The notes below the pieces were generated by a model. The model did no database searches and was not told the origin of the DNA. It was given only the letters and a program-made list of their open reading frames with translations. Below are positions 2,681 to 14,581 of a stretch of 62,144 bases of DNA, in pieces. Made by a program: the position numbers and the translations under genes. The stretch is from contig CACCFV010000002.1 in NCBI GenBank assembly GCA_902544985.1, forward strand, positions 81,177 through 143,320, given 5' to 3'. Position 1 is the first letter of the stretch. The number at the start of each line of letters is the position of its first letter. This stretch comes from an uncultured Pelagibacteraceae bacterium (GTDB taxonomy: Bacteria; Pseudomonadota; Alphaproteobacteria; Pelagibacterales; Pelagibacteraceae).

Positions 2681-4084
2681 ATGCCCAATACTCTTTACGA
2701 TAAAATTTGGAACGAGCATTTAGTTCATCAGCAAGAAGATGGAACAGCTTTATTGTTTGTTGACAGACATTTAGTTCATGAAGTCACTAGTCCGCAAGCC
2801 TTTGAGGGATTAAGAAATTCTAAACGTAAAGTAAGACACCCAAAATTGACATTAGCCGTTGCAGATCATAATGTTCCAACAACGGATAGGTCAAAAGGTA
2901 TTTCAGACCATGAATCTAAAATTCAAGTTGAAACTTTAGAGGCTAATTGTAAAGAGTTTGGTATTAAACTTTTTGGAATGAGCGATAAGAGACAAGGAAT
3001 TGTTCATGTCACAGGGCCTGAACAGGGCTTTACTCAACCCGGTACAGTTATTGTTTGCGGCGATAGTCATACAGCAACACATGGAGCATTTGGTGCATTA
3101 GCTTTTGGTATTGGAACTTCAGAAGTAGAACATGTTTTAGCAACTCAAACATTAGTTCAAAAAAAAGCAAAGAATTTTAGAATAAATGTCAACGGCACAC
3201 TTCCATTAGGTGTTACATCAAAAGATGTAATTCTTCAAATAATTGGAAAAATTGGAACTGCGGGAGGAACAGGATGTGTAATAGAATATGCAGGTGATCT
3301 AATTAAATCGCTTAGTGTTGAGAATAGAATGACAATTTGTAATATGACAATTGAAGGTGGTGCAAGAGCAGGATTAATTGCTCCTGATGAAAAAATATTT
3401 AAATACTTAGAAGATAGACCGATGTCTCCTAAGGGAGATGATTGGGATAAAGCACTAGATAATTGGAAAAATTTAAATACTGATGAGGGTGCAAAGTTTG
3501 ATAAAGAGGTAAACCTAACTGCTAATGAAATTTCGCCAATGATAACTTGGGGAACTTCACCTCAGGATGTTATTACGATAGATGAAAGAGTACCAAATCC
3601 AAAAAATGAGAAAGATGAGGATAGAAAAAATTCTTTGGAACGAGCCTTAAATTATATGGGCTTGAAACCAGATATGGCAGCTAAAGATATTAAAATTGAT
3701 AAAGTTTTCATCGGGAGCTGTACTAATGGGAGAATTGAAGATTTAAGAGAGGCTGCAAAAATTTTAAAAGATAAAAAAATTGCCTCTCATGTTCATGCTA
3801 TGGTTGTACCTGGATCAGGGCTAGTTAAAGAACAAGCAGAACAAGAAGGATTAGATAAAATTTTTGTGAAGTCAGGATTTGAATGGAGAGAGCCAGGTTG
3901 TTCAATGTGTTTAGCTATGAATGCAGATAAGTTAAAACCTGAAGAAAGATGTGCATCTACATCAAATAGAAATTTTGAAGGTAGGCAAGGTAGAGGTGGA
4001 AGAACCCATTTAGTAAGCCCAGGTATGGCAGCAGCAGCAGCAATATCTGGAAACCTTGATGATGTAAGGAAATATCAAAATTAA
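2681..4084 (+). CDS. leuC: 3-isopropylmalate dehydratase large subunit LeuC
   Basis: Aconitase-family [4Fe-4S] enzyme that, with LeuD, isomerises 2-isopropylmalate to 3-isopropylmalate in leucine synthesis. The length, 467 aa, is normal. The three cluster cysteines are present: Cys347 in GSCTNGR, and Cys407 and Cys410 in GCSMC. The N-terminal [17 protein letters not shown] and the [19 protein letters not shown] motif are typical. It is first of the tightly packed leuCDB set and directly follows the ribosomal genes. Confidence 0.97.
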
Positions 4085-7580: not shown

Positions 7581-9197
7581 ATGAGCCATTACGAAACTAA
7601 TCTTAATAAAAATGATGCAAATTATGTTCCATTAACACCTTTGACTTTTTTGAAAAGAGCTTATGAGATTTATCCCAATTATGAAGCAGTTATTTATGAA
7701 GATAGGAAATATACTTGGTCTCAAGTTTATAAACGTACTGTAAAATTTGCTAGTGCACTTAATAAAATTGGAGTTAGTAAGGGTGATACTGTTTCATTTT
7801 TAGCTTTTAATACCCCTGAAATTTTTGAAGGACACTATTCGGTTCCTATGACAGGTGCAGTTCTTAATACTATTAATATAAGATTAGATGCTAAAACAAT
7901 TGCGTATATTTTAGAACATAGTGAGGCAAAAGTTTTAGTTGTTGATAGGCAACTTCATGTTGAGGTTAAAAAGGCCTTAAATACTTTAAAAAGAAAAATC
8001 ATAATAATCGATATCAATGATAAATTCGCAGACCAATCTAAGTGTGAGCAAATTGGAGAATTAGAATATGAGAGTTTTTTAAACACTGGTGATGAAAATT
8101 ATGATTGGAAAATGCCAGAAGATGAATGGCAAGCATTATCACTTAGTTATACTTCAGGAACAACTGGAAACCCTAAAGGTGTAGTTTATCATCATAGAGG
8201 ATCATATTTAATGTCAACTGGAAGTGCAGTTGCATGGAATATGCCAAATAGGTTAAATTTTTTAACAATTGTACCTATGTTTCATTGTAATGGTTGGGGT
8301 TATCCATGGACTGTCCCTATGTTAAATGGAAGAACTATTTGTTTAAGAAATATTGATATAAAAAAAATATTTGAATTAATTGATAAATATGATGTTACCC
8401 ATTTTGGTGGAGCACCGATTGTATTGAATATGATCACCGGAGCTCCAGAGTCGGATAGAAAAAAATTAAAACAAAAAGTTTATGTATTAACTGCTGGTGC
8501 GCCACCACCAAGTATTATATTTAAAAAAATGAAAGAGCTTGGATTCGAGGTAATGCATGTCTATGGATTAACAGAAACTTATGGCCATGTTACCCAATGT
8601 GCTTGGAACGATTCTTGGAATGAATTTGATGAAGAAAAACAAAATGAAATAAAGGCAAGACAAGGTGTAAGATATCCTAATACAGAGGGGATCACAGTTA
8701 TGGACCCTGAAACTATGAAAGAAGTTCCAAAAGATGGAAAAACGATTGGTGAAATTATGATTAAAGGAAACGTCGTTATGAAGGGTTATTTCAAGGATAA
8801 AAATGCTACAGATAAAGCGATGAATGGTGGTTGGTTTCATTCTGGAGATTTGGCAGTTATGCATCCGGATGGATATGTTAAAATTCAAGACAGATCGAAA
8901 GACATCATTATTTCTGGAGGTGAAAATATTTCTTCAATCGAAATAGAAAACACTTTAGCAAAGCATCCATCAGTTTCTATTGCAGCGGTAGTAGCAAAAC
9001 CAGATGAAAAATGGGGCGAAGTCCCATGTGCATTTATTGAGATGGTCCAAGATAAACCAGTCACAGAAAAAGAATTAATAAGTTTTTGCAAAGAAACTCT
9101 TGCTGGTTTTAAAGTGCCGAAAAAAGTTGTTTTTTGTGAATTACCAAAGACTTCAACAGGTAAAATTCAAAAATTTGAGTTAAGAAAAAAATTTTAG
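7581..9197 (+). CDS. dmdB: AMP-forming acyl-CoA ligase, probable methylmercaptopropionate-CoA ligase DmdB
   Basis: ANL-superfamily ligase that would activate methylmercaptopropionate (the product of DmdA) with ATP and CoA. The 538 aa product has the P-loop-like YTSGTTGNPKGV motif near residues 189-200, the VYGLTETYG motif, GWFHSGDLAV, the hinge region KIQDRSKDIIISGGENIS and the C-terminal catalytic lysine in PKTSTGKIQK. The ATG directly follows the stop of the upstream dehydrogenase. Context favours DmdB over a general medium-chain acyl-CoA ligase. Confidence 0.83.
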   Translation: MSHYETNLNKNDANYVPLTPLTFLKRAYEIYPNYEAVIYEDRKYTWSQVYKRTVKFASALNKIGVSKGDTVSFLAFNTPEIFEGHYSVPMTGAVLNTINIRLDAKTIAYILEHSEAKVLVVDRQLHVEVKKALNTLKRKIIIIDINDKFADQSKCEQIGELEYESFLNTGDENYDWKMPEDEWQALSLSYTSGTTGNPKGVVYHHRGSYLMSTGSAVAWNMPNRLNFLTIVPMFHCNGWGYPWTVPMLNGRTICLRNIDIKKIFELIDKYDVTHFGGAPIVLNMITGAPESDRKKLKQKVYVLTAGAPPPSIIFKKMKELGFEVMHVYGLTETYGHVTQCAWNDSWNEFDEEKQNEIKARQGVRYPNTEGITVMDPETMKEVPKDGKTIGEIMIKGNVVMKGYFKDKNATDKAMNGGWFHSGDLAVMHPDGYVKIQDRSKDIIISGGENISSIEIENTLAKHPSVSIAAVVAKPDEKWGEVPCAFIEMVQDKPVTEKELISFCKETLAGFKVPKKVVFCELPKTSTGKIQKFELRKKF

Positions 9198-9205: not shown

Positions 9206-9982
9206 TTGATATTCCAACTAGAAAACAAAAACATTCATGCATCCGACTCTGGCCAGGGTATAGATACAAATAAAGATACGATAGTATTTTTACATGGAAG
9301 TGGTCTCTCACATATTGTCTGGTCGCTAGCTGAACAATTTTTTTCATCAAAAAATTATAATGTATTATCTATAGATTTACCTGGACATGGAAATTCAGAT
9401 GGTCCTTGCTTAGATAGTGTTGAAAAAATTGCTGATTGGATGGAAAAAGTATTTGATAAATTAAAATTAAAAAACTTAATTTTAGTTGGTCATTCTCAAG
9501 GATGTTTAGAAATACTCGAATATTCTTCAAGATATAAAGAGAAACTAAAAAAATTAGTTTTTGTTGGAGGTTCAAATAAAATGCCAGTACATCCGGATTT
9601 AATTGAATTAGCTCAAAGCGGACACTCAGACGCTGTTAAATTAATGATGAAATGGGGATATGAGGGTTCAAAAAAGTTTATTGGTGGTAACCCAGTAGAA
9701 AAAATCATTCAATCGCCGAGAGATATAAGTGAAATTTTGGCTGTTGATTTAAATGCATGTAACAATTATTTAAATGGCTCAAAGGCTGCAAAAGAAATTG
9801 ATCTACCATCAATGCTTATATTTGGAGAATTAGACAAAATGGTTAATTTAGAAGCAGGAAAAAAATTCTCTAATTTGATTAAAAATTCAACTACTCACGT
9901 GATCAAAGGATGTGGCCATATGATAATGATTGAAAAAGCATTCGAAATGAGAGAAAAGATTTTAGAATTCTTAAATAAATGA
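9206..9982 (+). CDS. Alpha/beta-hydrolase fold protein of the DMSP operon, substrate unknown
   Basis: The 258 aa product is a cytoplasmic alpha/beta hydrolase with no signal peptide. It shows the oxyanion region [12 protein letters not shown], the nucleophile elbow GHSQG (Ser near residue 97), the acid in FGELDKM and the histidine in GCGHMIM, so the triad looks complete. It starts with TTG behind an AGGA site and overlaps dmdA by 4 bp (ATGA), so it should be co-translated with the demethylase. No hydratase of the DmdD (crotonase) family is present in the operon. A thioesterase or C-S-bond role on a pathway intermediate is possible but is inference only. Confidence 0.8.
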
Positions 9983-11088
9983 AAAGTTATCCAATAGCTA
10001 AATCAAGAAGAGTGAGAAGTACTCCGTATACTTCAAGAATTGAAAATCAAGGTGTGACTGCCTACACAGTTTATAATCATATGCTGTTACCAGCAGCATT
10101 TGGATCTTTAGAAGAATCCTGTGATCATTTAAAAAAAGATGTTCAAGTATGGGATGTATCAGCAGAAAGACAGGTTGAAATTTCAGGCAATGATGCAGCG
10201 AAACTTGTTCAACTTATGACCTGTAGAGATTTATCCAATTCCAAAATTGGCAGATGTTATTATTGCCCAATAATTGATGAAAGTGGAAATTTAGTAAATG
10301 ATCCAGTTATTTTAAAGCTAGCTGAAGATAGATGGTGGATCTCAATTGCTGACTCCGATGTTATTTTTTTTGCAAAAGGATTAGCATCAGGTAATAAATT
10401 CAATGTAAATATTTTTGAGCCTAATGTTGACATCCTAGCAATTCAAGGACCCAAATCTTTTGATTTGATGGAAAAAATTTTTGGTAAGGAGATAAAAGAG
10501 TTAAAATTTTTTGGATTTAATTATTATGATTATAAGGGTGTAAAACATTTAATTGCTAGATCTGGTTGGTCAAAACAAGGAGGTTTTGAGATCTATGTTG
10601 AAAATACTAAATCCGGATTAGATTTATATGATCAACTCTTTGTATTAGGAAAAGAATTCAATGTAAAAGCTGGATGTCCAAATTTAATTGAAAGAATAGA
10701 AAGTGGTTTACTTTCTTATGGAAACGATTTTGACAATAATGATAATCCATTTGAATGTGGTTTTGAAAAGTATGTAAATCTAGATACAGATATAGATTTT
10801 TTAGGTAAGGAAAGACTGAAAAAGATTCAAAAAGACGGGATCAAAAGAAAATTAATGGGTGTTCAGATTGATACTAGTAGAATTAATTTAACTAAATCTC
10901 TTAATATTAAAGATGAAAAAGGAAATTTAATTGGGGATTTAAGATCTGCCTGTTATTCACCTCATTTTAAAAAGTCTATAGGTATTGCGATGATAAATGA
11001 GCCACATTGTAAAGCATCCGCTTCAGGATTATTGGAAATTGATGGAAATTTAATAGCTGTAAAAGTTTGCGATTTACCTTTCATCTAG
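9979..11088 (+). CDS. dmdA: Dimethylsulfoniopropionate demethylase DmdA
   Basis: GcvT-family enzyme that moves a methyl group from DMSP to tetrahydrofolate, giving methylmercaptopropionate and 5-methyl-THF. The 369 aa length matches known DmdA proteins. Recognisable blocks are [50 protein letters not shown] and [16 protein letters not shown]. The DmdA-type N-terminus and the dmdB/dmdC partners separate it from aminomethyltransferase and other GcvT relatives. It is last of the operon; asd follows after 15 bp. Confidence 0.95.
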
Positions 11089-11103: not shown

Positions 11104-12111
11104 ATGAATATAGCAATAGTAGGAGCAACAGGTAATGTTGGAAGAAAAACTCTGGAAGTTCTCGAAAAAAAAGGACTTACTTCAGGAAATCTTTACTTAG
11201 TTGCTTCGTCTAAAAGCGCTGGAAAAAAAATTCATTTTCAAGGTAAAGATATTATAGTGAGTGAATTAGAAAATTTTGATTTTTCCAAAGTTAAAATCGC
11301 TTTTTTTGCAGCAGGTGGTAAAATTTCTGAAAAATTTGCAGAAAAAGCAGCCAAGCATTGTCTAGTAATAGATAATTCAAGTTTTTTCAGAATGGATCCG
11401 GATGTTCCTTTAATAGTCCCACAGGTAAATTCAGATGCTTTAAACAATATTAAAAAAAATATTATTGCAAATCCTAATTGTTCAACAGCACAATTAGTAA
11501 TCGCATTAAAGCCATTACATGATTTATTTGTAATTAAAAGAATAGTTGTTTCAACATACCAATCCGTTTCTGGTGCTGGCAAAGCATCAATGGATGAATT
11601 GATTAAACAAACTAAATTAGCTTTAGATGGTAAAGATATTAAATCTGAAAATTTTACAAAACCAATTGCTTTTAATGCAATCCCGCATATCGATGTTTTT
11701 TCAGAAGATGGCTACACGAAAGAAGAATTAAAAATGAGAAACGAGACTAAAAAAATCTTAGATGACAAAATCGATCTAACAGCAACATGTGTTAGGTTAC
11801 CAATATCTGTTTCTCACTCAGAATCGGTAAATATTCAATTTGAGAAAACTTTTTCTTTAGAGCAAATAAATAAAGCACTGAATAGTTTTGATGGTTGCAA
11901 AGTAATTGATGAAAGAATTGATGGAGGTTACTCGACACCATTAGAGGCAGAAGGAAAAGATGAAACTTTTATTTCAAGGATTAGAGAAGATAAAACAATA
12001 AAAAATGGATTAAATTTGTGGATTGTATCTGATAATCTTCTAAGAGGCGCTGCATTGAATGCAGTTGAAATAGCTGAAACATTAATTAAAAATAATTTTT
12101 ATGGAAAATAA
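11104..12111 (+). CDS. asd: Aspartate-semialdehyde dehydrogenase
   Basis: NADPH enzyme reducing aspartyl phosphate to aspartate semialdehyde, the branch point to lysine/DAP, threonine and methionine. The 335 aa product begins with the Rossmann motif IAIVGATGNVGR and carries catalytic Cys126 in NPNCSTAQLV. The substrate motif VSGAGKASMDEL and the later RLPISVSHSESVN are present. Its 3' end overlaps sdhC by 11 bp. Confidence 0.96.
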   Translation: MNIAIVGATGNVGRKTLEVLEKKGLTSGNLYLVASSKSAGKKIHFQGKDIIVSELENFDFSKVKIAFFAAGGKISEKFAEKAAKHCLVIDNSSFFRMDPDVPLIVPQVNSDALNNIKKNIIANPNCSTAQLVIALKPLHDLFVIKRIVVSTYQSVSGAGKASMDELIKQTKLALDGKDIKSENFTKPIAFNAIPHIDVFSEDGYTKEELKMRNETKKILDDKIDLTATCVRLPISVSHSESVNIQFEKTFSLEQINKALNSFDGCKVIDERIDGGYSTPLEAEGKDETFISRIREDKTIKNGLNLWIVSDNLLRGAALNAVEIAETLIKNNFYGK

Positions 12112-12484
12112 ACCTCCTCTATCACCACATATTCAAATTTATAGATGGCATATTTCCTCTTTGGTTTCCATTACTCATAGAATTACAGGAGTGATAAATA
12201 TTATTGGAATTACTTTTATTTGCATTTGGTCTTGTTTACTTCTTCTTGGTGAAAATAATTATGAAGTAATTAATTTATTTTTAAAATCATTATTTGGGAA
12301 ATTTATCATTTTAGGAATCACATGGTCTTTTTCATTTCAAATATTAAGTGAAATTCGACACTTGATAATGGATCTAGGTTATGGTTTTGAACTGAAGATA
12401 ACTAGGATCACGGGTTTAATAGTAATATTTGGATCAATAATTTTGACGATTATTTTTTTTACATTAGGAAAAAATTTTATTTAG
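12101..12484 (+). CDS. sdhC: Succinate dehydrogenase cytochrome b556 subunit SdhC, usual heme ligand missing
   Basis: Membrane anchor of complex II. The 127 aa product has the family N-terminus (LSPHIQIYRWHISS), the quinone-site signature SITHRITGV (Ser23, Arg27) and three hydrophobic segments. The block FQILSEIRHLIMDLGY aligns with E. coli YHVVVGIRHMMMDFGY. The axial heme b ligand, E. coli His84, is Gln80 here (codon CAA at 12338-12340), while the later His (E. coli 91) is kept as His87. It starts inside asd; sdhD follows after 1 bp. Confidence 0.93.
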   Translation: MENKPPLSPHIQIYRWHISSLVSITHRITGVINIIGITFICIWSCLLLLGENNYEVINLFLKSLFGKFIILGITWSFSFQILSEIRHLIMDLGYGFELKITRITGLIVIFGSIILTIIFFTLGKNFI

Positions 12485-12485
12485 T

Positions 12486-12809
12486 ATGATTAGTGCGACT
12501 AAAAAATGGATTTTTTTAAAGATCAGTGGAGTTTTGTTAGTGCCATTGATGACATGGTTTATTTTAAATTTCACAATGATTTATGATAAAGAATACTTAA
12601 ATCTAATAGAATTTTTTACAATGCCTTTATCTAAATTTTTATTTAGTATTTTTATAATAAATGCTTATTTTTTTTCAGCTTTAAGTATAAGTGAGGTTTT
12701 TGAGGATTATATTAAAAATGATAAAATCAAAAGTGTCGCAAATAAGCTTTTATATGCATCAGCAGTAGTAATTCCTCTAATTACAATTATATTAATCTCT
12801 AGCTTATGA
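12486..12809 (+). CDS. sdhD: Succinate dehydrogenase membrane anchor SdhD, no histidines
   Basis: Second membrane anchor of complex II, 107 aa with three hydrophobic segments (about residues 10-32, 51-70 and 85-105). The [11 protein letters not shown] block aligns with E. coli MWQVLTDYVK, keeping the quinone-site Tyr (Tyr75 here, Tyr83 in E. coli). The heme ligand equivalent to E. coli His71 falls on Phe63 (12672-12674), and the whole protein contains no histidine. Identification rests on position between sdhC and sdhA plus the EDY motif. It overlaps sdhA by 4 bp. Confidence 0.9.
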
Positions 12810-14581
12810 GTTCATATAAAATAATAGATCATGAATATGACGTTGTAGTCCTAGGTGCTGGTGGTTCTGGCTTAAGAGCCGCTGTTGGTTTAAGTGAAGC
12901 AGGATTAAAAACTGCATGTATTTCAAAAGTATTTCCAACAAGAAGTCATACTTCTGCTGCGCAAGGTGGAATTTCAGCTGCCCTTGGAAACATGGGCGAA
13001 GACGACTGGCGTTGGCATATGTATGATACTGTAAAAGGAGCAGATTGGTTAGGAGACCAAGATAGCATTGAGTACCTTTGTAAAGAAGCTCCTAAAGCAG
13101 TGATTGAATTGGAAAAATATGGTGTCCCATTTAGCAGAACAGAGGATGGCAAAATTTATCAAAGACCTTTTGGTGGTATGACCAAAAATTATGGAAATGG
13201 AATAGTCCAAAGAACATGTGCTGCAGCCGATCGAACAGGACACGCAATTTTGCACACTTTATATGGTCAAGCTTTAAAACATAAGACAGAGTTTTTTATT
13301 GAGTATTTTGCTCTCGATCTTTTAATGAAAGATGGGGAATGTAAAGGATTGATAGCATGGAATTTAAATGATGGAACTATTCATCGATTTAGATCTCATA
13401 TTGTTATTATAGCTACAGGCGGCTACGGAAAAGTTTACTATTCTGCAACATCTGCTCATACATGTACTGGCGATGGAAATGCAATGGTGCTAAGAGCAGG
13501 TCTACCGTTACAAGATATGGAGTTTGTGCAATTTCATCCAACCGGAATTTATGGACACGGTACCTTAATAACAGAAGGTGCGAGAGGTGAAGGAGGTTAT
13601 CTTACAAATTCTAAAGGCGAAAGATTTATGGAAAGATACGCGCCTAAAGCTAAGGATTTAGCATCACGTGATGTTGTAAGTAGGTCAATGTCAATTGAAA
13701 TTAATGAAGGAAGAGGAGTTGGAAAAGATCAAGATCATGTTCATTTGAACTTAAGTCATCTAGATAAAGAAATTATAGAAAGTAGATTGCCAGGTATTAC
13801 AGATGCAGCAAGATTATTTGCCAATGTAGATGTTACTAAGGAGCCAATTCCAGTTGTACCTACAGTTCATTATAACATGGGTGGTATACCAACAAATTAT
13901 AAAGCAGAAGTTTTGACTGTAAATGGTTCTGAAAAAACTGTTCCAGGACTTATGGCTATAGGGGAAGCAGCTTGTGTTTCAGTTCATGGAGCAAATAGAT
14001 TGGGCTCTAACTCTTTGATTGATCTTGTTGTTTTTGGAAGAGCAGCTGCAAAAAGAGCTGCTGAACTAATTAAACCTGGTACACCACATGAGGAGATCAG
14101 TGAATCAGAAACTCAAAAATGTTTAGATCGTTTTGATAAGATTAGAAACTCTGATGGAGATATTGGTACTGCTGAACTAAGACTGTCCATGCAAAAAACA
14201 ATGCAATCAAAATGTGCGGTTTTTAGAACAGAGAAAACACTTAAAGAGGGTGTTGATGAAATACGACAAACATTTGATGGATTGGATTCTTTATCAGTTA
14301 AAGATAAATCATTAATATTTAATACTGACCTAGTAGAAACTTTAGAATTTGATAATTTAATTAGACAAGCTGTTGTGACAGTTGACTCCGCTTATAATAG
14401 GAAAGAAAGTAGAGGAGCTCATGCAAGAGAAGATTATCCAAAAAGAGATGATGAGAAGTTTATGCAACATACATTAGCTTGGTGTGATGGAAAAAAATCA
14501 AAAATAAGTTATAGAGATGTTCATAAGTCTACATTAACCAATGAAGTACAGTATTTTCCACCTCAGGAGAGAGTATATTAA
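12806..14581 (+). CDS. sdhA: Succinate dehydrogenase flavoprotein subunit SdhA
   Basis: Covalent-FAD subunit oxidising succinate to fumarate. The 591 aa product shows the dinucleotide-binding [14 protein letters not shown], the FAD-linked histidine in [18 protein letters not shown], substrate residues in [11 protein letters not shown] and [16 protein letters not shown], and [17 protein letters not shown]. Length and motifs are normal. The stop and the sdhB start share one base (TAATG). Confidence 0.98.

Follow-up and report, generated by a model that had tools for sequence, protein, structure and literature searches.

A predicted heme-free type C succinate dehydrogenase in the Pelagibacter lineage, with a glutamate four residues after the lost SdhC heme ligand

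Results

The sdhCDAB Operon and the Residues of Its Heme and Quinone Sites

The window analyzed here is a stretch of 62,144 nucleotides from an uncultured Pelagibacteraceae bacterium (contig CACCFV010000002.1 of assembly GCA_902544985.1, positions 81,177 to 143,320 of the forward strand), and it contains an intact sdhCDAB operon encoding a succinate dehydrogenase (complex II). All four proteins scored above the cut-off of the curated family expected for each, and the genes were located as follows:

12101..12484, + strand: sdhC, cytochrome b556 anchor subunit of 127 amino acids; intact open reading frame matching TIGR02970 and PF01127
12486..12809, + strand: sdhD, membrane anchor subunit of 107 amino acids without histidine; intact open reading frame matching TIGR02968, with a fold match to E. 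coli SdhD
12806..14581, + strand: sdhA, flavoprotein subunit with the flavin-linking His48 kept; TIGR01816, 958 bits
14581..15360, + strand: sdhB, iron-sulfur subunit with all 11 cysteines of E. coli SdhB kept; curated family above cut-off

SdhC reached 119.5 bits against TIGR02970 (NCBIfam cut-off 52.3) and 95.8 bits against PF01127, and SdhD reached 47.8 bits against TIGR02968 (NCBIfam cut-off 41.8). With membrane helices in the predicted models of both proteins, this is the arrangement of a type C enzyme, which has two separate anchors with three membrane helices in each, the fold match of SdhC being weak. The PF02313 model for the FrdD-type anchor of type D enzymes was matched at a sub-threshold level (17.1 of 25 bits). 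The identity to the E. coli K-12 proteins was 117/233 for SdhB, 314/584 for SdhA, 37/115 for SdhC and 18/102 for SdhD. The system resembles E. coli SdhCDAB in operon order, subunits, iron-sulfur and flavin adenine dinucleotide (FAD) ligands and quinone-site residues. The flavin-linking His45 of E. coli SdhA corresponds to His48, and pairwise alignment showed that the SdhB cysteines for the three iron-sulfur clusters were intact, as an earlier note on this DNA had stated, all 11 cysteines of E. coli SdhB being kept. Pro160, Trp164 and His207 of E. coli SdhB were kept as well. The system differs from the E. coli enzyme in that His84 and His71, the heme ligands of SdhC and SdhD, are replaced by Gln and Phe, and SdhC Gly88 by Glu. 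The positions concerned, assigned by pairwise alignment with E. coli, are:

12167..12169, + strand: SdhC Ser23, equivalent to Ser27, quinone site, kept
12179..12181, + strand: SdhC Arg27, equivalent to Arg31, quinone site and propionate contact, kept
12338..12340, + strand: SdhC Gln80 (CAA), at the heme ligand His84
12350..12352, + strand: SdhC Glu84 (GAA), at Gly88, four residues after the ligand (ligand + 4); proposed propionate replacement
12359..12361, + strand: SdhC His87, equivalent to His91, propionate contact, kept
12519..12521, + strand: SdhD Lys12, at Arg20, propionate contact; proposed partner of Glu84
12672..12674, + strand: SdhD Phe63 (TTT), at the heme ligand His71
12684..12686, + strand: SdhD Ser67, at Gly75, ligand + 4, the position of yeast Glu112
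12708..12710, + strand: SdhD Tyr75, equivalent to Tyr83, quinone site, kept

In type C enzymes one heme b takes an axial ligand from each anchor, and the two ligand places are occupied here by Gln80 and Phe63. The earlier note had read both substitutions, with the same codon and coordinates, and had pointed out that SdhD contains no histidine at all; both statements were borne out. The histidines left in SdhC are His10, His17, His26 and His87. The quinone site, in contrast, was complete: the Ser23, Arg27 and Tyr75 that the note had listed as kept were found in the alignment together with the Trp and His of SdhB (Trp185 and His228), and the residues equivalent to Ser27, Arg31 and Tyr83 of E. 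coli were conserved in 330 of 330 SdhC/SdhD pairs from alphaproteobacteria. The most constant change, SdhC Gly88 to Glu, is absent from the earlier note.

The register of the SdhC site was anchored by ungapped flanking motifs and was identical when vertebrate SDHC was used. SdhD is divergent: searching the PDB with its sequence alone returned no relative, but fold comparison did retrieve E. coli SdhD. The AlphaFold model of SdhD (mean predicted local distance difference test score, pLDDT, 86.5) aligned through residues 3–107 with residues 11–115 of E. coli SdhD (105 residues, root mean square deviation (rmsd) 2.0, Z 13.0), and this pairs Phe63 with His71 and Lys12 with Arg20. The model of SdhC had a pLDDT of 74.4 and a predicted template modeling score of 0.52; its four best Foldseek matches were E. 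coli SdhC chains (E 0.1 to 0.24), and in a second fold alignment E. coli SdhD chains were the best (Z 8.5, rmsd 5.7).

Altered Ligands in SAR11 and Other Alphaproteobacteria

In the genus of the window (g1), 114 genomes had an SdhC match and 108 were read, G250, G279, G281, G282, G285 and G294 being left out; among matching genomes, G084, G121, G140, G174, G188, G192 and G198 of g2 and 17 of the 41 of the sister family f2 were also left out. Duplicates of one genome were merged (243 loci to 229 genomes), 6 weak-match loci without SdhC were dropped, and so were rows without a readable SdhD (8 of 299 SdhC rows, plus 1 of 40, L458). Genomes without an SdhC match amounted to 12 of 61, 30 of 147, 18 of 147, 36 of 191 and 5 of 65 in the five samples, and 1, 1, 7, 28 and 2 of these, respectively, had a completeness of 90% or more and little contamination. 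Neither SdhC nor a full SdhA was found in G271, G290, G292 and G078, which are estimated to be 92–98% complete; this may reflect a gap or a true loss. The class-level sample (54, then 70 loci) was non-random, consisting of best-scoring and low-scoring loci and of matching members of one order. When two methods of naming the SdhD residue disagreed (G342, G461 and G382), the alignment column was used.

Within g1, the SdhC ligand position was occupied by Gln in 107 of 108 genomes and by His in one (G037), and ligand + 4 was Glu in all 108. The SdhD ligand position, readable in 107 genomes, carried Phe in 86, Tyr in 16 and His in 5, so that neither ligand histidine was present in 101 of the 107 pairs. 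The 40 genomes added to this set, which included the most divergent ones, had Glu in 40 of 40 and Gln in 39 of 40, and they contained the one genome with SdhC His and the five with SdhD His. Gln was also found in 80 of 80 of the best among 453 loci encoding a relative; these 80 belong to Pelagibacteraceae, Pelagibacterales or Pelagibacter, and one is the cultured Candidatus Pelagibacter ubique HTCC9565, which has the combination Gln, Glu and Phe. The alignment across the clade proposed in the earlier note hence gave substitutions that are nearly, not perfectly, fixed in the genus. In a Pelagibacteraceae genome from Lake Baikal (G286; L338, with SdhC at 3001–3381, and L474), the motif IRH was replaced by IRQ, the equivalent of E. 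coli His91 thus being lost, and no histidine was left on SdhC helix II.

Other genera of the family had other combinations. In g4, SdhC had His + Glu in 21 genomes and Gln + Glu in 4, with SdhD Phe in 25 of 25; in g2, Gln + Glu was found in 14 and His + Glu in 4 (SdhD, readable in 3 of these, was Phe), while G180 was of the type with both histidines (bis-His). The single genomes of g14 and g7 had SdhC Gln and Tyr, respectively, each with Glu at + 4 and SdhD Asn. All 37 genomes of g3, g5, g6, g8, g9 and g12 were bis-His with Gly at + 4. In a Pelagibacteraceae genome from Lake Baikal (G286; L338, with SdhC at 3001–3381, and L474), the motif IRH was replaced by IRQ, the equivalent of E. coli His91 thus being lost, and no histidine was left on SdhC helix II.

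In the sister family f2, of which 24 of the 41 matching genomes were read, SdhC Tyr with the SdhD His kept was found in 18 of 18 genomes of g15 and g17; the single g18 genome had SdhC Asn, Asp at + 4 and the SdhD His, and g16 was bis-His (SdhC in 5, SdhD read in 4). The combination of SdhC Tyr (Asn in g18) with SdhD His in loci L201–L218 and L220 resembles a swapped version of the His/Tyr pair of yeast. Altered ligands were also present in alphaproteobacteria of other families. Five genomes outside SAR11 (G382, G431, G407, G362 and G552, locus L400) had SdhC Tyr and a Glu at SdhD 75, the ligand + 4 position of that subunit; wider sampling around G362 found no further genome of its order. Three further loci outside SAR11 were altered without an acid at + 4: L402 and L404 (G503 and G496), with SdhC Gln and SdhD His, and L436 (G439), with SdhC His and SdhD Tyr, as in yeast. 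All three had Lys at SdhD 20.

A Glutamate at Ligand + 4 Accompanies the Loss of Ligands

When the genomes of the family were grouped by their ligands alone, all 112 genomes with ligand loss had Glu at SdhC ligand + 4, and all 38 bis-His genomes had Gly. Among the 330 pairs from alphaproteobacteria, none of the 152 with both histidines had an acid at + 4 in SdhC or SdhD, compared with 157 of the 178 others (118/139 in the first set plus 39/39 added genus pairs), these counts being dominated by related genomes. A second change was seen at the position of E. coli SdhD Arg20, which was Lys in 109 of 111 Glu-bearing family genomes vs Arg in 38 of 38 bis-His ones; Lys was again present in 38 of the 39 added genus genomes. 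The position of E. coli SdhD Val19 was occupied mostly by hydrophobic residues.

A tree-aware pair test of any ligand lost against an acid at + 4 provided 6 pairs, a mean of 5.1 in the same direction and 0 opposed; SdhD His loss against Glu88 gave 3 pairs only, 2 of them in the same direction. For SdhC against SdhD His loss, only 1.7 of 7 pairs went in the same direction and 5.3 did not differ, which indicated that the two ligands were not lost strictly together. These tests, the SdhA and SdhCD trees below and the comparison of the SdhCD and RpoB groupings were made before the 40 genus rows were added.

History of the Anchors and Heme Synthesis

A tree of SdhA fragments (224 rows), in which only 33 of 200 inner branches were well supported, required a minimum of 11 changes in the SdhC ligand position and of 5 in that of SdhD. 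In the SdhCD tree, from which the ligand columns had been removed, the Glu-bearing rows of g1, g2, g4 and g14 formed one group with a support of 98 (Shimodaira–Hasegawa-like approximate likelihood-ratio test), and the same grouping had a support of 98/98 in a 26-genome set. In the RpoB tree (26 rows), however, the bis-His g6 was sister to g1 + g14, and g2 + g4 formed a separate clade. A single Glu-bearing clade was rejected on RpoB (p of the approximately unbiased test, p-AU, 1.5e-7), and the RpoB grouping was rejected on SdhCD (p-AU 1.3e-8). A history with a single event, based on one gene, was consequently discarded, and the exchange of sdh operons within SAR11 would be the simplest account of these sequences.

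In the SdhCD tree, g6 (L084, L089 and L113) carried g3-like operons, and G180 (L076) grouped with the g3 genome G102. RpoB, available for G180 and for two of the three g6 genomes, placed G180 with g2 and g6 with g1. This discordance suggests horizontal operon exchange; in the case of G180, mis-binning of the contig is the alternative.

The co-occurrence of SdhC His with Glu and SdhD Phe in g4 and in part of g2 suggests that, in these genomes, the loss of the SdhD ligand and of the glycine preceded the change of SdhC His to Gln. This order was not universal, since five genomes of the genus carry SdhD His. All Gln codons read CAA or CAG and all His codons CAT or CAC, one base apart; Tyr to His is likewise a single base change, and the five SdhD histidines may be ancestral or regained.

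The ferrochelatase gene hemH was found in 18 of 18 genomes tested, with altered and bis-His enzymes alike. An inability to make heme was thus rejected as the cause, and any heme loss would be specific to this complex, because heme synthesis is retained in the genomes that carry the altered enzyme. The economy of iron or heme in the ocean, which the earlier note had offered as a motive, is plausible and so far not supported.

Neighboring Genes and Other SdhA-Like Proteins

Upstream of sdhC lies asd, with an 11-base overlap, and genes for methylmalonate-semialdehyde dehydrogenase and malate dehydrogenase lie 3' of sdhCDAB. A dimethylsulfoniopropionate demethylase gene was located at 9979–11088 of the window, two genes upstream of the operon (NF009133, 573.5 bits, cut-off 410), and an acyl-CoA synthetase gene at 7581–9197, four genes upstream. 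A second SdhA-like protein with 32–36% identity was observed in the bis-His genomes G065, G069, G082 and G100 (g5, g9 and g12); it is probably, at a guess, an L-aspartate oxidase, and a search of ten g1 genomes found no such protein.

Discussion

The results obtained point to a type C succinate:ubiquinone oxidoreductase that would work without heme b, a salt bridge within the protein replacing the heme propionate; a probability of about 0.8 is given to this reading, which leaves odds of roughly one in five for a heme that is still bound or for some other explanation. Of the proposal made in the earlier note, a complex II that is heme-free and still reduces quinone, this is the part that is well supported, by sequence only: the ligands are gone in nearly all of the genus, the change from Gly to Glu occurs in none of the bis-His relatives, the quinone site is untouched and yeast offers a precedent.

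Under this reading, electrons would pass from succinate to FAD, through the three iron-sulfur clusters of SdhB and directly to ubiquinone, at a site formed by Ser23, Arg27, Tyr75 and SdhB Trp185 and His228, and the heme, which lies off this path in E. coli, would be replaced by contacts between SdhC and SdhD. SdhC Glu84 would stand in for a heme propionate, most likely paired with SdhD Lys12, while Phe63 and its neighbors may fill the space of the porphyrin. In E. coli, SdhD Arg20, SdhC Arg31 and His91 contact the heme propionates, and Arg20 and Arg31 are equivalent about a pseudo two-fold axis, according to the accessible text of PMC3290573; for this reason Lys12 is the partner expected for Glu84. 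The former ligand positions now vary (Gln or His in SdhC; Phe, Tyr, Asn or His in SdhD) and the Glu is constant, as expected if there is no iron to hold.

The closest precedent is the complex II of Saccharomyces cerevisiae. As described in the accessible text of PMC13066397, its cryo-electron microscopy structure contains no heme; the Sdh3 His is kept and hydrogen-bonded to Tyr108 of Sdh4, which replaces the other ligand, and Sdh4 Glu112 replaces a glycine and takes over the propionate contact with Sdh3 Arg97. A conserved phospholipid is buried deeper, and Sdh4 Lys73 is among the residues not conserved in heme-containing enzymes (PMC13066397, same text). Both systems are type C, keep the quinone site and carry a Glu in place of glycine at + 4 from a lost ligand, the absence of heme being predicted from sequence in the case of the window. 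They differ in that the yeast Glu belongs to Sdh4, the SdhD side, and the Sdh3 His is kept, whereas here the Glu is in SdhC and both histidines are gone. Since Glu112 is the ligand + 4 residue of Sdh4, the SAR11 Glu occupies the pseudo-symmetric place, and a Glu84–Lys12 bridge would be the counterpart of the one between Glu112 and Arg97; the residue is the one that replaces heme contacts in yeast, and its contact on SdhC is put forward here from the alignment. Lys12 would fall within one residue of yeast Lys73 if helix 1 aligns without gaps.

Other complexes without heme are also comparable. The membrane domain of complex II is heme-free in Tetrahymena thermophila, with cardiolipin at the heme position (accessible text of PMC10227065), and also lacks heme in Perkinsus marinus (accessible text of PMC13066397). 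The window enzyme, if heme-free as predicted, would resemble both as a natural complex II, but the Tetrahymena complex is, in the same text of PMC10227065, very divergent and has many extra subunits besides its cardiolipin. The type D fumarate reductase of E. coli similarly has two anchors and no heme, as is predicted here, but the window proteins pass the SdhC and SdhD equivalog models and match the FrdD model only below its cut-off. Furthermore, a heme-free variant of the E. coli enzyme kept significant activity, attenuated by roughly 50%, and still supported growth on succinate, and the role of the heme is termed highly ambiguous (accessible text of PMC3290573). The loss of heme is therefore survivable, and the path from the [3Fe-4S] cluster to quinone is independent of it.

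Several results weigh against a heme-free enzyme. One histidine is retained in 6 of the 107 g1 pairs, at the SdhD position in G042, G040, G272, G277 and G246 (L451, L453, L470, L477 and L478), all five with SdhC Gln + Glu, and at the SdhC position in G037 (L455), with Glu and SdhD Phe. The five SdhD histidines may be read in two ways: the position may have become free to vary, or those strains may bind heme from one side. In addition, no acid was present at + 4 in 21 of the 178 altered pairs, and the tree-aware test of ligand loss against this acid gave a median p of 0.06, so that with 6 usable pairs the coupling is suggestive, not proven. A rank test over the heme-site columns taken from the literature, in both subunits, detected no excess of change (p = 0.31; p = 0.63 without the two ligands), because the residues that contact propionate and quinone are mostly invariant. 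In SdhD alone, 4 of 5 such columns were among the 5 most changed of 112, a view picked after seeing the table. The altered group of the rank test had been set by Glu at position 88, which is circular for that column, and the recount by ligands alone given above was used instead. Finally, the SdhC model aligned poorly with E. coli SdhC chains (Z 6.7 to 7.6, rmsd 7 to 9); for this reason and because of its modest confidence, it carries little weight.

It is unlikely, though it deserves consideration, that heme b is still bound by an unusual or one-sided ligation, through His87, His26, Gln80 or water, together with propionate contacts. Glutamine can ligate heme in a peroxidase mutant, and the five SdhD histidines of the genus would fit such a ligation. 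All 112 Glu-bearing genomes of the family retain the equivalents of His87 and Arg27, whose E. coli counterparts contact the propionates, and 109 of the 112 retain that of His26; His26 and His87 correspond to places at the edge of the heme in E. coli. Single axial-ligand mutants of E. coli retain heme, as the title alone of a cited paper states; the two kept histidines and these mutants also speak against the loss of heme. However, ligand + 4 is Glu throughout the genus and never an acid in the 152 bis-His pairs, the SdhD of the window has no histidine to offer, and yeast keeps one histidine and yet has no heme (accessible text of PMC13066397). His87, the fallback ligand suggested in the earlier note, is some two helix turns away from the ligand position; its E. 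coli counterpart is a propionate contact, and the Baikal relative has Gln there, so this suggestion is so far not supported. A related idea, which overlaps with the heme-free reading as a variant of it and can be regarded as possible at rather low odds, is that the heme site is occupied by a different molecule, for example a second quinone or a phospholipid. The cardiolipin of Tetrahymena and the buried phospholipid of yeast speak for it (accessible texts of PMC10227065 and PMC13066397), whereas a filling by side chains fits the Phe or Tyr that replaces the SdhD ligand and the mostly hydrophobic character of the Val19 position.

The anchors could, alternatively, be drifting or degenerating in a shrinking genome, the enzyme being impaired or replaced, as small genomes, variable ligand positions and ligand loss in several lineages might suggest. 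This is very improbable: Glu84 is constant in the 108 g1 genomes, the quinone site in all 330 pairs, and the FAD and iron-sulfur ligands are kept. A degenerate or duplicate enzyme was moreover rejected, given the conserved active sites and the single full-length SdhA found in the window genome (77% complete) and in each of 10 near-complete relatives of the genus; the latter count indicates that no second enzyme takes over. An artefact of sequencing, assembly or alignment has a negligible probability. The window genome is one incomplete assembly, but Gln is found in 107 of 108 genomes of the genus and in the 80 best loci, counts that refute this explanation, and the register is held by the ungapped motifs flanking the SdhC site and by the SdhD fold alignment.

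Heme-free type C enzymes are already known from yeast and protists, and what is new here, by a search of the open-licence literature, is a predicted bacterial variant using different residues. In that literature, most subscription papers being outside its scope, no title or abstract among the matches listed reported a SAR11 complex II lacking heme or with altered ligands, and nothing on it was found in the accessible texts of PMC4013037, PMC8879329, PMC5953543 and PMC11069385. Taken as a whole, the odds are somewhat better than even that the Pelagibacter lineage respires with a heme-free complex II and that heme was lost repeatedly in alphaproteobacteria, often by one rule, in which loss of a ligand goes with a change from glycine to Glu at + 4, in SdhC or SdhD, as a substitute for the propionate and, in Pelagibacter, as a mirror image of yeast.

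Pelagibacter and its SAR11 relatives dominate ocean plankton and are among the most numerous bacteria of the ocean. If the reading proposed here is true, theirs would be the first bacterial type C enzyme reported to lack heme naturally, as far as the open-licence literature shows. Enzymes with both, one and none of the ligand histidines exist side by side in SAR11, a natural comparison with which to test the disputed purpose of the heme, and an acid at ligand + 4 may serve as a sequence marker for predicting heme-free enzymes elsewhere.

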